Source of the DNA: Verrucomicrobiota bacterium
Lineage (GTDB): Bacteria; Verrucomicrobiota; Verrucomicrobiia; Verrucomicrobiales; Akkermansiaceae
Reading direction: 5' to 3'
DNA length: 45,440 nt
NCBI GenBank assembly: GCA_018969605.1
Contig: JAGWXY010000011.1
Span: 1-45,440 of the forward strand
Positions within the stretch are counted from its first letter, which is position 1, and every line of letters starts with the position of its first letter. Below the pieces are notes generated by a model. The model was given only the letters and a program-made list of their open reading frames with translations. It was not told where the DNA came from and ran no database searches. The translations under genes were made by a program, and so were the position numbers. This document shows, one piece after another, positions 1-27,988 of the stretch.

Positions 1-14
1 CAAAGAGGGCTTTG

Positions 15-101
15 ACCACAGATTACACAGATTGCACAGATAAAGAAAAATCACAAAAAATGCGCTCCTCGATAATCAGTAAATCTGCGAAATCAGTGGT
101 T
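15..101. repeat. Empty element with inverted nonamer triplets
   Basis: The left arm (15-41) is three 9-base units of the form nCACAGATT. The right arm (75-101) is the same pattern on the other strand (CCACTGATT, TCGCAGATT, then TACTGAT). About 33 AT-rich bases lie between them and encode nothing visible. The build matches the termini of the GxxExxY cassette at 25848-26282, which also uses three 9-base units, but with a different unit. It may be a non-autonomous or emptied copy of a related element; that origin is inferred. Confidence 0.6.
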
Positions 102-196
102 AAAATGATTCGAATGATATTTCGACTTCGGATTTCGGGTTGAATTGCGAGCGTAATCAAATAAAGAAGTGGCATCATCGTTGTCGCGTCATCGAA

Positions 197-13173: not shown

Positions 13174-13212
13174 TCACGAAATTGACGAAGGGCACGAACC
13201 TGGAAGAGAGGA
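13174..13212 (+). repeat. Decayed left terminus of a GxxExxY-type cassette
   Basis: Three 9-base units (TCACGAAAT, TGACGAAGG, GCACGAACC) are followed by TGGAAGAGAG. This closely follows the left repeat and first codons of the GxxExxY cassette at 25850-25888. The start codon is lost and no gene or right terminus follows, so it is a relic lying between the tiny lipoprotein gene and ftsY. Confidence 0.6.
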
Positions 13213-24505: not shown

Positions 24506-25840
24506 GTGAGCCCGCAGCTTGAGGATCTGTTTTCGTTTCTCCGATTTGCCAGTGTGTCGACCGATTCTCGGCATGCGGGAGATGTGCGTGCCTGTGCCGA
24601 ATGGTTGCGTGGGAAACTTGACGGCATGGGTTTGATCGCAACCTTGCACGAGACTCCCGGGCATCCGGTGGTGCTTGCAAAGAACGCGCATTTTGAGGGT
24701 CGGCGCACGGTTTTGATTTACGGCCACTACGATGTTCAGCCGGTGGATCCCTTGGACTTGTGGACGACCCAGCCGTTTGACCCGGTGCTTCGCGATGGAA
24801 AAATCCTGGCGCGTGGCGCCACTGACAACAAAGGGCAGATGATGGCCCATGTGCTTGGTGTCGAGGAGACGCTGCGCGAGGAAGGTGATTTGCCGGTGAA
24901 TTTGATTTTCCTGTTTGAAGGTGAAGAAGAAATCGGTAGCCCGAACCTTGCGGAATTTTTGCGTCAGAATCGCGAGGAATTGCGCTGCGATGTGATTGCG
25001 ATTTCCGACACCGGCATGGTGGCGGCCGGTGTGCCGACGCTCGGTTATGGTCTGCGCGGGATCGTGTGCTGCGAGGTAGTGTTGCGCGGGCCGAAGGGTG
25101 ATTTGCACTCGGGGATTTTTGGTGGAGCGGTGTCGAATCCGGCGACCGCGATCGCGCGACTGGTGGCAAGCTTGCATGACAATCATGGGCGTGTGGCGGT
25201 GGAGGGTTTTTACGATGCCGTCAAACCACTCGAAGGGTGGGAGCGCGAAATGTGGGCCAGCGTGCCGGGTGTGAGCGATGCGGATTTTCTGGATGTGACA
25301 GGAGCGCCCGCATTGTTTGGCGAGGAAACTTATTCATCGGCCGAACGCGTTTGGGCGCGGCCGACGGCGGAGGTGAACGGTATCGGTGGTGGATATCAGG
25401 GCGAGGGCTCGAAGACCGTTTTGCCTGCCGAGGCATTTGTGAAACTTTCATTTCGTCTCGTGCCCGATCAAGACCCGGCAGACATCATGCGCAAGGTGAC
25501 CGATCATCTCGAACGCCATTGCCCACCCGGTGTGCAAATCGAGGTGAAGCCCGGTCACGATGGCAAACCCTACCTTGTCGATCCGCATTCCAAATATGCG
25601 AATGCGGCGCAGGATGCGTTGAGGGCATCGTTCGGTGCTGAGCCGGTTTTGATTCGCGAAGGTGGGAGCATTCCGATTGTGCAAACATTTCGCGACATTC
25701 TTGGGGTCGATACCCTTTTGCTTGGTCTCGCGCTGGCCGACGCGCAGGTGCATGCGCCGAACGAGAACTTTCCGGTCGCAAACTTCGAGGCCGGCATTCG
25801 CATGAACCGGGCCTTGCTTGTCGAGCTTGCGAAGTGCTGA
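24506..25840 (+). CDS. M20-family zinc dipeptidase
   Basis: A 444-residue M20 metallopeptidase of the dipeptidase branch (CNDP-like), expected to cleave dipeptides in the cytoplasm. The two-zinc site is seen: GHYDVQP near residue 82, ARGATDNKGQ near 112, EGEEEIGS near 145, SDTG near 175, and VHAPNENF near the end. The dimerisation insert includes GPKGDLHSGIFGG. The GTG at 24506 starts at VSPQLEDL; an earlier TTG at 24470 adds twelve residues that fit poorly. The repeat of the GxxExxY cassette begins seven bases after its stop. Confidence 0.9.
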   Translation: MSPQLEDLFSFLRFASVSTDSRHAGDVRACAEWLRGKLDGMGLIATLHETPGHPVVLAKNAHFEGRRTVLIYGHYDVQPVDPLDLWTTQPFDPVLRDGKILARGATDNKGQMMAHVLGVEETLREEGDLPVNLIFLFEGEEEIGSPNLAEFLRQNREELRCDVIAISDTGMVAAGVPTLGYGLRGIVCCEVVLRGPKGDLHSGIFGGAVSNPATAIARLVASLHDNHGRVAVEGFYDAVKPLEGWEREMWASVPGVSDADFLDVTGAPALFGEETYSSAERVWARPTAEVNGIGGGYQGEGSKTVLPAEAFVKLSFRLVPDQDPADIMRKVTDHLERHCPPGVQIEVKPGHDGKPYLVDPHSKYANAAQDALRASFGAEPVLIREGGSIPIVQTFRDILGVDTLLLGLALADAQVHAPNENFPVANFEAGIRMNRALLVELAKC

Positions 25841-25847
25841 AGATTTT

Positions 25848-25877
25848 AAACCACGAAAATCACGAAGGGCACGAAAT
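25848..25877 (+). repeat. Left inverted repeat of the GxxExxY cassette
   Basis: Thirty bases beginning AAACCACGAAA and built of three 9-base units (CCACGAAAA, TCACGAAGG, GCACGAAAT). It matches the reverse complement of 26253-26282 at 26 of 30 positions. Its last two bases are the first two of the GxxExxY start codon. Confidence 0.85.
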
Positions 25878-26253
25878 GGAAGAGAGATGCCAATTGTTTT
25901 ACGAGGAGGTCGGGAAAATTCTCGATGCTGCAGTGGAGGTTCATCGTGTTCTCGGCTACGGATTGCTTGAAAAGCCAAATGAAAACGCATTGGTGCGTGA
26001 ATTTGTGCTTCGCGGGATTCGTTTTATACAGCAGCCAAGATTTCCTGTTGAATACAAAGATGTAAAGGTAGGAGAGTTTGTGCCTGATCTCATTGTTTTT
26101 GATTCGATCATCGTCGACACCAAGACGATCAATCGAATAACCGACCTGGAAGTTGGGCAAATGATCAATTATTTGAGGGTCACAAAACTGCGTGTCGGTT
26201 TCATCATCAACTTTAAAAATCATCGTCTCGAAACACGCAGAATTGTTCTCTAA
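25876..26253 (+). CDS. GxxExxY protein (PD-(D/E)XK nuclease-like)
   Basis: A 125-residue protein of the GxxExxY group, which belongs to the PD-(D/E)XK nuclease superfamily (PDDEXK_3). The naming motif near residue 36 is GLLEKPN, so the final Tyr is replaced by Asn. The nuclease core is kept: Glu in ENALVREF, then VPDLIVFDSIIVDTK, giving PD-x9-DTK. The ATG at 25876 is preferred; an earlier ATG inside the peptidase gene would translate the repeat. Start and stop codons abut the two inverted repeats. Base composition is AT-richer than the neighbours, which supports import. The biological role is unknown. Confidence 0.85.
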   Translation: MEERCQLFYEEVGKILDAAVEVHRVLGYGLLEKPNENALVREFVLRGIRFIQQPRFPVEYKDVKVGEFVPDLIVFDSIIVDTKTINRITDLEVGQMINYLRVTKLRVGFIINFKNHRLETRRIVL

Positions 26254-26282
26254 TTTCGTGTCTTTCGTGCCTTTCGTGGTTT
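26253..26282 (-). repeat. Right inverted repeat of the GxxExxY cassette
   Basis: Inverted partner of 25848-25877, also in three 9-base steps. Its first base is the last base of the GxxExxY stop codon. glnS starts 17 bases later, so the cassette fills almost the whole gap between the M20 gene and glnS. No target-site duplication is evident. Confidence 0.85.
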
Positions 26283-26299: not shown

Positions 26300-27988
26300 A
26301 TGTCCGAATCCGATCCAATCCATAAAAGCGACTTCATCCGCGACATCATTGCGGAGGATCTTGCAAGCGGTGTGCATGCCACGACCATCACGCGTTTTCC
26401 GCCCGAGCCGAATGGCTACTTGCACATCGGGCATGCGAAGTCGATTTGCCTGAATTTCGGCATTGCGGAGGAGAATTCAAAAACCGGCGCGAAATGTCAT
26501 TTGAGGTTCGATGATACGAATCCGGAGAAGGAGGAGTCCGAGTATGTCGAGAGCATCAAGCGTGATGTTCGCTGGTTGGGCTTTGATTGGGGTGATGATC
26601 TCTATTTCGCGAGCAATTACTTTGGGTTTTTCCATGAATGTGCGCTGCATCTGATCAAGGCCGGCAAGGCCTATGTTGAGAACGAGTCCGCCGAGGAAAT
26701 GCGAATCAAGCGTGGCAATCTTACCACTCACGGCACGCATTCCGCTTATCGTGATCGGTCGGTTGAGGAGAATCTCGCATTGTTTGAAAAGATGCGCCGT
26801 GGTGAGTTCAAGGAGGGTGAATGCGTCTTGCGGGCAAAGATCGACATGGCATCGCCTAACATGAACATGCGCGATCCGGTGCTTTATCGCATCATGCACA
26901 CGCCGCATCACAACACAGGCGATGCCTGGTGCATTTATCCGATGTATGACTTTGCGCATCCGTTGGAAGACGCGCTCGAGCACATCACCCATTCGCTATG
27001 TACGCTTGAGTTTGAGAATCATCGACCGCTTTACGATTGGTTCATCGAGAACTGCCCGGTGCCTTCAAAGCCGCGTCAGATCGAATTCGCGCGGCTCAAT
27101 CTGACCTACACGGTCATGAGCAAGCGCAAGCTCCTGCAGTTGGTGCAAGAGGGTCATGTCGACGGGTGGGATGATCCCCGCTTGCCGACGATTTCCGGCC
27201 TGCGGCGGCGCGGATATCCGGCGGCGGCGATTCGCGATTTCTGCAAGCGCATCGGCATCACCAAGTTCAATGGAACGACCGATGTGGCCTTGCTGGAGTT
27301 TGAAGTGCGCGACTATCTCAACAGGTCGGCGCCGCGCCGCATGGCGGTGCTCGATCCGGTGAAGGTGGTTTTGGAAAACTGGTTGGACGAACCTTTGGCG
27401 AAGGCGCTGGTGTCGAATCACCCGCAGAACCCTGATATGGGTGAGCGGGAAGTGGCGATGAGTGGCGCGGTCTGGATCGAACGAGAGGACTTCATGGAGG
27501 ATCCACCGAAGAAATTTTATCGCCTCGGGCCGGGGCGTTGCGTGCGTTTGCGCGGAGGTCACATCATCCGCTGTGTTTCATATGATAAAGACGCGGATGA
27601 TCAGGTTTCATTGATTCGTGCCGAGATTATTCCCGGTACGGTTGGTGTTGATGCACCGGAGGGCATCGAGTGCCGTGCGGCGATCCATTGGGTCGATGTT
27701 GCCGACGGTGTCGATGCCGAGGTGCGCCTCTACGATCGTCTGTTCGGTGTCGAGGATCCCGATGCGGCGGAAGGCGGGTTCCTAACCGTTTTGAATCCGC
27801 ATTCTTTGAAAAAAATCACGGCCAAGGTTGAGCCATTGCTTCTCGCGGCAGAGGCAGGTTTTGTCTGTCAGTTTGAGCGTGTCGGATATTTTGTTGCCGA
27901 TGAGGTTGAGCATCAACCAGGTCAACGGGCGGTATTCAACCGAAGCGTAGCGCTTAAAGATTCGTGGGGCAAACAGGCGGGCAGGTGA
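26300..27988 (+). CDS. glnS: Glutaminyl-tRNA synthetase
   Basis: GlnRS charges tRNA-Gln directly. The 562-residue class I enzyme has the ATP site RFPPEPNGYLHIGHAKS near residue 32, RFDDTNPEKE, WLGFDWG, HSLCTLEFENHRPLYDW, and the KMSKS equivalent VMSKRKL near 273. The C-terminal anticodon-binding beta barrels end with VADEVEHQPGQRAVFNRSVAL. The start MSESDPIHKSDFIRDII fits the family. It lies just behind the GxxExxY cassette, which may have separated it from its own promoter region. Confidence 0.97.
   Translation: MSESDPIHKSDFIRDIIAEDLASGVHATTITRFPPEPNGYLHIGHAKSICLNFGIAEENSKTGAKCHLRFDDTNPEKEESEYVESIKRDVRWLGFDWGDDLYFASNYFGFFHECALHLIKAGKAYVENESAEEMRIKRGNLTTHGTHSAYRDRSVEENLALFEKMRRGEFKEGECVLRAKIDMASPNMNMRDPVLYRIMHTPHHNTGDAWCIYPMYDFAHPLEDALEHITHSLCTLEFENHRPLYDWFIENCPVPSKPRQIEFARLNLTYTVMSKRKLLQLVQEGHVDGWDDPRLPTISGLRRRGYPAAAIRDFCKRIGITKFNGTTDVALLEFEVRDYLNRSAPRRMAVLDPVKVVLENWLDEPLAKALVSNHPQNPDMGEREVAMSGAVWIEREDFMEDPPKKFYRLGPGRCVRLRGGHIIRCVSYDKDADDQVSLIRAEIIPGTVGVDAPEGIECRAAIHWVDVADGVDAEVRLYDRLFGVEDPDAAEGGFLTVLNPHSLKKITAKVEPLLLAAEAGFVCQFERVGYFVADEVEHQPGQRAVFNRSVALKDSWGKQAGR

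Follow-up and report, generated by a model that had tools for sequence, protein, structure and literature searches.

Introduction

The described repeat system closest to the arrangement reported here is that of the REP-associated tyrosine transposases (RAYTs), which are thought, according to the available text of PMC3116915, to spread REPINs, that is, doublets of REP sequences. REPs themselves are described in the accessible part of another source as palindromes ending in GTAG (PMC3733652). Translational control has been suggested for a different set of short repeats, the TAACTGA heptamers of Beggiatoaceae, in the portion of PMC4679880 that is available. In regard to the GxxExxY protein family, our literature search found no functional study, and it found no account of GxxExxY genes with flanking arrays; preprints and most subscription papers lie outside the coverage of this search, which is not proof of novelty. 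The name GxxExxY turned up in two papers, PMC8934634 and PMC12085832, and PF13366 in one.

Here we analyze a GxxExxY gene that lies between two inverted arrays of short direct units in the window, by which we mean the whole 45,440-nt stretch of DNA under study. The locus resembles REPIN/RAYT in that a chromosomal gene is flanked by the repeat, gene-less inverted doublets are dispersed, and the repeat type is tied to the gene. REPIN doublets adopt a hairpin in the mobile intermediate; the two window arms are complementary, and arm mismatches in the family show no G.U bias. The differences concern both components: RAYTs are tyrosine (Y1, HUH) transposases whereas GxxExxY proteins are PD-(D/E)XK nucleases by profile and predicted fold, and the REP palindrome is tagged GTAG or CGTC whereas each window arm has AAC followed by three direct CACGAA units. 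With enzyme and repeat both of another kind, the GxxExxY gene and its arrays most likely work like REPIN/RAYT yet fall outside that system.

Two other comparisons are worth drawing. Like MITEs and insertion sequences, the GxxExxY units have inverted ends, gene-bearing and gene-less copies, and one near-identical multi-copy family in the window's own genome, but they have no recognized transposase class and their ends are arrays of short direct units. The Beggiatoaceae repeats, as far as the available text of PMC4679880 describes them, likewise form small sets of short direct units, which lie mostly between genes and are patchy across phyla; in contrast, they are heptamers in direct sets rather than inverted pairs, and that text names no nuclease.

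Results

The cassette in the window

The gene at 25876..26253 (+ strand) encodes a GxxExxY / PDDEXK_3 nuclease of 125 aa plus stop. Its left arm (25848..25877, +) consists of AAAC followed by three nonamer units with a CACGAA core and ends on the start codon, while the right arm (26253..26282, −) is an inverted copy, again of three nonamer units with a CACGAA core, that starts on the stop codon. A first-pass annotation of this DNA had described 30-nt inverted repeats built from nonamer triplets and overlapping the start and stop codons, and our recount agrees: the arms, 375 nt apart, are complementary at 26 of 30 positions (87%), each has three CACGAA cores at 9-nt spacing, the end of the left arm supplies the first two bases of the ATG at 25876-25878, and the first base of the right arm is the last base of the TAA at 26251-26253. 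It had also seen correctly that the cassette nearly fills its gap, occupying 435 of the 459 nt between the M20 gene (ending at 25840) and glnS (starting at 26300), and that the gene is richer in AT than its neighbors (G+C 42.6%, against 58.4% for M20 and 54.9% for glnS). The claim that the unit has no spare sequence holds for the window copy but not elsewhere, as the distance between arm and matched coding stretch at other loci varies from 0 to well over 100 nt.

The inverted arms of the window are beyond chance. Whereas the best 30-mer inverted repeat in the 901-nt region around the cassette has 26 matches, 300 dinucleotide shuffles of that region reached 19.4 on average and never more than 23. 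Elsewhere in the window, a lone CACGAA triplet with one core mismatch lies at 13175-13198 (+), and no partner array for it was found within the window. This triplet adjoins TGGAAGAGAGGATGG, which is similar to the start of the window gene, and is a possible relic.

A predicted PD-(D/E)XK nuclease

The window protein scores 118.9 bits against TIGR04256 of NCBIfam (cut-off 35) and 112.5 bits against PF13366 of Pfam (cut-off 22), in both cases above the curated cut-off; these are its sole profile matches at E<=1, and no transposase class was recognized in it by either collection. The PD-x9-DTK nuclease core noted at first pass is present, and the tyrosine of the naming motif is indeed lost, residue 35 being Asn, with the tyrosine present in the same-site relatives L131 and L138. 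Family membership stands on the score, and the GxxExxY motif supplies the name only. Across 29 aligned members, G29xxE32 of the naming motif (25960..25971, +) is invariant in 29/29, as are the catalytic-type Asp71 of the PD (26086..26088, +), the Lys of the (D/E)xK motif D81-T-K83 (26116..26124, +), and both residues of Q95xxxY99 (26158..26172, +), a motif that characterizes nucleases of the RecB/Cas4/lambda-exonuclease type. Of ten gene pairs, two are far from saturation, and their dN/dS is ~0.09 (L076/L075) and ~0.11 (L148/L142), which shows purifying selection on the protein in the measurable pairs.

The AlphaFold2 model of the window protein (mean pLDDT 96.2, pTM 0.87) has its best Foldseek matches in the LHK-Exo alkaline exonuclease (E 2.5e-4), lambda exonuclease, and SSO0001. 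The top match of a second structure aligner was SSO0001 (4ic1), a Cas4, with Z 9.9 and rmsd 2.7 over 97 residues; its next match had Z 7.5, a level that the aligner's own warning calls possibly common. The predicted fold resembles that of Cas4 and lambda exonuclease, of the PD-(D/E)XK type. A search by sequence for a solved structural homologue returned one chain only, at E 0.73, which is not credible.

Cas4 proteins have the RecB-type motifs D, (D/E)xK, and QxxxY as well as four Fe-S cysteines. The motifs are all present in the window protein (D71, D81-K83, Q95-Y99), and their order, D...(E/D)xK...QxxxY, together with the predicted fold, constitutes the likeness to Cas4, lambda exonuclease, and LHK-Exo. 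The window protein has one Cys and therefore no Cas4-type Fe-S site, and no Cys is invariant among the 29 aligned members. GxxExxY proteins differ from Cas4 and lambda exonuclease also in being only ~125 aa long and in being linked to their own flanking arrays. Cas4 profiles in Pfam match 12 of the 29 members weakly (best 0.003); among those in PADLOC there is a weak match to L018 (2.8e-4) and none to the window protein or L002. In PMC8934634, the authors' pipeline is reported to have detected just a GxxExxY domain at a place for which CRISPRone proposed a cas4.

Inverted arrays around the family

Two further GxxExxY genes in the window's own genome each lie between inverted arrays of ~9-nt units, and the unit sequence differs between genes, being CACTGATTn-like at one (L002) and CGCCAAGnn at the other (L003). 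Because these arms are of other sequence, the feature is a pattern rather than one repeat. Among 39 genomes, one of them the window's own, 36 have the family, often as several copies; it was also found in 171 of the 288 sampled genomes of the phylum, with 117 giving no match. Judging from record titles, its carriers in other phyla include Bacteroidota, Acidobacteria, Planctomycetes, Chloroflexi, Proteobacteria, Cyanobacteria, and the archaeal Methanosarcinales, among others.

We compared the flanks of 112 loci from the window's order (30 + 80 fetched rows plus L001 and L002, with weaker or partial rows left out; L022 in this set is the same gene as L003) and of a cross-phylum set consisting of the best 80 of 582 confirmed loci, which were found via the motifs LGPGLLES[AT] and HxAQ and hence favor one subgroup. 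An inverted-flank score of >=20 was reached at 85/112 order loci, compared with 4.4% of mismatched up- and downstream flank pairs, and at 52/80 cross-phylum loci, compared with 7.8% of mismatched flanks; 27/112 and 28/80 loci scored below 20. Direct, non-inverted flank scores of >=20 were seen at 26/112 order and 16/80 cross-phylum loci.

Counts of an explicit array pattern, CRCNRA units at 8-10 nt spacing, gave a similar picture. Forward arrays stand upstream of the gene at 56/112 order and 41/80 cross-phylum loci and reverse arrays downstream at 48/112 and 40/80; both occur together at 40 and 29 loci, against 7 and 2 with the opposite arrangement. The background in distant 220-nt chunks of the same loci is 5/455 and 7/1129 for forward arrays and 4/455 and 9/1129 for reverse ones. 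In the flanks of the control gene glnS an array was found upstream in 1/30 and downstream in 0/30 cases, the single match being the gene-less unit at the M20-glnS site in G007. These data support the conclusion that a nuclease gene between inverted arms is the common arrangement of the family, in the order and in many phyla. Units of strict period 9 proved too narrow a definition, as the spacing is 8-10 nt and matched between arms. Other unit types, e.g., ACAGGATTn, are visible in the alignments and fall outside the CRCNRA counts.

What the arms share

The two arms of an element were compared in 68 of 192 elements, namely those with both arms passing the array filter; the window copy, whose last unit abuts the start codon, is for that reason outside this set. 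Between the two arms of an element, identity is.94,.77,.91, and.97 at unit positions 2, 4, 5, and 7, compared with.50,.34,.50, and.52 between elements, and at spacer positions 8 and 9 it is.56 and.43 (cross-element.36 and.32). The spacing pattern is identical in both arms in 59 of the 68 elements, where permutation gives a mean of 14.3 and a maximum of 32. A reading of the arms as an RNA stem was examined by way of G.U asymmetry, and none was seen: arm mismatches at core positions comprise 27 G/A and 34 A/G. Since matched units and the lack of a G.U bias fit protein reading of DNA units better than an RNA stem, we infer that recognition of the units on DNA by a protein is to be favored.

Arm similarity also follows protein similarity over part of the range. 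In the subset of order loci passing arm-length filters (62/112), the Mantel r is 0.60 for all pairs and 0.34 for pairs below 60% identity, values reached by 0/5000 permutations each, and the link is absent in pairs below 45% protein identity (r -0.003). In the corresponding cross-phylum subset (33/80) the correlation is weak over all pairs (r 0.22, reached by 10/5000 permutations) and absent below 60% identity (r 0.05). A link that holds at moderate distance and is lost at large distance indicates that the arm type is inherited with the gene and then turns over, and shared descent of whole elements may account for it. Among orthologous pairs, 18 usable and non-independent ones out of 47 listed, concerted and one-arm changes number 17 vs 30 at core and 17 vs 25 at spacer positions, so concerted change is no more typical of the core than of the spacer in these 18 pairs.

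Residence of the gene

Of 30 glnS loci, those from 18 genomes have M20 adjoining glnS and allow the site to be compared. The gene with CACGAA arms is present there in G000, G003, and G014. In the nearest relative, G007 (glnS 94%, M20 97%), the gap measures 131 nt and contains the two arms but not the gene, and of the remaining 14 gaps, 13 are without an array and one (L253, in G004) has a single reverse array. Thus two relatives carry the gene at this site with matching arms, not with the diverged or absent repeats that the first-pass annotation had named as counter-evidence. The same gap in G018 (L245) contains successive heptamers of the GAAATCTGAAATCTGAAATTCG type, which may be related to the arrays but with a period of 7.

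More broadly, flanks are homologous in 56 of 83 close pairs (>=60% identity); the other 27 lack shared flanks, an example being L020 compared with L018 and L027 at 82-83% identity. The GxxExxY gene is thus mostly a vertical resident at orthologous sites. One copy in G018 (L314, G018:C6:8500-9300) has a gene shortened in frame with intact CACGAATTT-type arms around it and is an intermediate between gene-bearing and gene-less forms. Taken together, the arms without a gene in G007, the shortened copy, and the shared sites indicate that genes persist and can decay to gene-less pairs. In the other genomes compared, the window site is without the gene, which was either lost or never there. Carriage by phages and by plasmids was also considered and set aside, as a search with L018 as the one query matched none of 50,697 records from phages and 7 of 72,556 from plasmids.

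Arrays with and without the gene

We counted arrays in 58 genomes, which have between 0 and 111 each; over all of them the reversed control gave 10 matches. By the stricter leading pattern, arrays are present in 34/35 gene-bearing genomes (1 to 111), which were hand-picked and not random, vs 3/23 gene-free genomes, of which 19 come from one genus, so that the contrast amounts to few independent events. The gene-free group consists of G019, G023, and G028 plus 20 listed of the 117 genomes without a match, and no array was found in these 20 same-family gene-free genomes. An independent contrast comes from another genus, where G271 has no gene and no array while G274 has four genes and 16 arrays. 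The correlation between gene number and array density is weak (rho 0.38, p 0.02). G089, which belongs to the same genus as the 19 gene-free genomes, carries three genes, and the leading pattern finds no array in it; the arms of its genes may be of another type.

Exact dependence of the arrays on the gene can be rejected, as three genomes hold arrays without it: G019 (15, where other counts for this genome also include long tandem, coding-type repeats), G023 (12), and G028 (5). No family member was found in them at E<=10, except for a weak match in G023 (E 0.69, below cut-off).

The window itself begins with a gene-less element that is present in many copies in its assembly. This element (1..141, +), cut by the contig start, has inner CACAGAT nonamer arms at 15-41 and ~74-102 and an outer heptamer-type right arm at ~119-141, part of an outer inverted heptamer-like repeat, CCGAAAT CCGAAGT CGAAAT, that surrounds the inner arms. 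Near-identical miniature elements match at 14 places (window 1-141; L055, L056, L058-L061, L063, L064, L066-L071), with 98.9% mean identity over the parts compared. As copies split over two contigs match twice, these 14 matches correspond to at least 8 distinct insertions by their flanks, and because a contig end is the location of 12 of the 14, the element probably broke the assembly. At one of its sites G007 lacks the element, where the indel, the one compared, is 296 bp long, larger than the element and not an exact excision; neither a target-site duplication nor an exact empty site was seen.

Gene-less pairs in another genome have arms identical to those of a resident gene. An exact 26-mer of the arms of the resident gene in G010 recurs there at four gene-less places, two of which (L306, L308) are copies of one larger unit around CGCCAAG arms and look like nonamer pairs nested in another miniature element. 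Like the element at the start of the window, these two have outer ends that resemble an additional inverted repeat. The spacer letters of the G010 arms occur in 6 of the 7 exact matches listed in G010 (two of them the gene's own arms) and in 0 of the 29 listed in G000, G004, G011, and G018. With up to 3 mismatches allowed, genomes of the genus each have between 0 and 98 arrays of the CGCCAAG class; 14 genomes from other families of the order have 4 altogether, and the reversed control matched once in 39 genomes. G018 has 98 such matches, yet none of its four gene copies that were read (L046, L105, L113, L314) has those arms; at one place in this genome (L311, G018:C1:35600-37100), CGCCAAG-type arrays with GAGCGCGGCTAC-type spacers run in the same direction at intervals of ~120 nt and more.

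The window's own genome holds 20 arrays vs 3 genes, and what scatters is mainly arrays without a gene.

Discussion

The first-pass annotation had proposed a mobile or homing-like unit encoding a nuclease that is recognized through its own termini. Partner arms as the common arrangement of the family, which is how the 85/112 order loci and the 52/80 cross-phylum loci can be read, and variable array numbers speak for part of this proposal, but the gene is mostly vertical and shows no sign of homing, and the window unit therefore probably neither jumps freely nor homes. The same annotation had regarded repeats that occur mostly without the gene and lack copy-number mobility as evidence against it; the arrays are indeed mostly gene-less, but the copy-number differences between genomes are clear.

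With a probability of roughly 0.57, we consider the window cassette to be one resident copy of a widespread two-part system, consisting of a nuclease and its recognition arrays, in which the nuclease spreads arm pairs much as in REPIN/RAYT but with an unrelated enzyme and an unrelated repeat. The nuclease component would be the single-domain, Cas4/lambda-exonuclease-like PD-(D/E)XK protein GxxExxY, and the recognition arrays would be two inverted arms of ~three direct units, most commonly with the core C[AG]CN[AG]A at 8-10 nt spacing and usually preceded by AAC. The protein would most likely bind an array as a run of half-sites and cut at or beside the arm, and repair or copying and replication after the cut would then spread arm pairs in the genome. 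This spread, if the enzyme is indeed its cause, would mostly take place in trans, through short elements that lack the gene; only rarely would the gene itself be carried along. A bolder extension, for which we would give slightly less than even odds, is that such elements constitute a class of miniature mobile DNA that evolved independently and extends across domains, a counterpart to RAYT/REPIN based on a Cas4-like nuclease, in which each protein reads an array code (positions 2, 4, 5, and 7 plus spacing), so that several families, distinguished by this code, could coexist in one genome.

Alternatively, the arrays may be spread by another agent, such as a different transposase, replication slippage, or repair, with the nuclease gene as passenger or domesticated user. 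This explanation, which we regard as unlikely though the most serious of the alternatives, draws on the three gene-free genomes that keep arrays, on some gene-less copies being nested in larger miniature elements whose outer repeats are different, on the predominance of genes at orthologous sites, and on the fading of the arm-protein link with protein distance. A passenger, however, does not explain why arrays flank this one family across many phyla, nor why the 20 same-family gene-free genomes taken have zero arrays. In regard to homing or self-mobilization, in which the nuclease would cut a cassette-free allele, into which the entire cassette would then be copied, the predicted nuclease fold with intact catalytic-type residues, the cassette architecture, and the 27/83 pairs of similar genes without shared flanks are all compatible with such a process. 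Yet the cassette resides at the same site in G000, G003, and G014, 56/83 close pairs share flanks, the site is intergenic in all three carriers with no split target gene seen, and arrays outnumber genes, as in the own genome with 20 vs 3; we therefore hold homing to be improbable, and less likely than the two-part system.

Less likely still is that the arms are mere regulatory or RNA elements, whether operator, mRNA hairpin, or translation control, rather than recognition ends. The left arm of the window copy does abut the start codon, and the available text of PMC4679880 places the Beggiatoaceae heptamer repeats just upstream of start codons and proposes them as translational signals, but an inverted arm also stands behind the gene, gene-less pairs exist, and arm mismatches are without the G.U bias that an RNA stem would predict. 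Finally, the idea that the pattern is due to chance, or is an unremarkable repeat beside an ordinary gene, might appeal to the 27/112 and 28/80 loci that miss the flank score, and it is refuted by the shuffles, mismatched flanks, background chunks, and glnS flanks, leaving it hardly any credence.

We return to a nuclease and its recognition arrays as our preferred explanation. As far as we have checked, its architecture, with a gene between repeats and dispersed gene-less doublets, is of a known kind, while the class of enzyme and the array-type ends are new. If true, it would assign a function to nucleases of a family present in 171/288 sampled genomes of the phylum and in many other phyla. 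It would also explain a class of intergenic repeats found at contig breaks, as exemplified by the 12 of 14 matches of one such element. The system would rest on a short sequence code that could be checked directly on the purified protein, and it would represent a second, unrelated solution for keeping small repeat populations in prokaryotic genomes.
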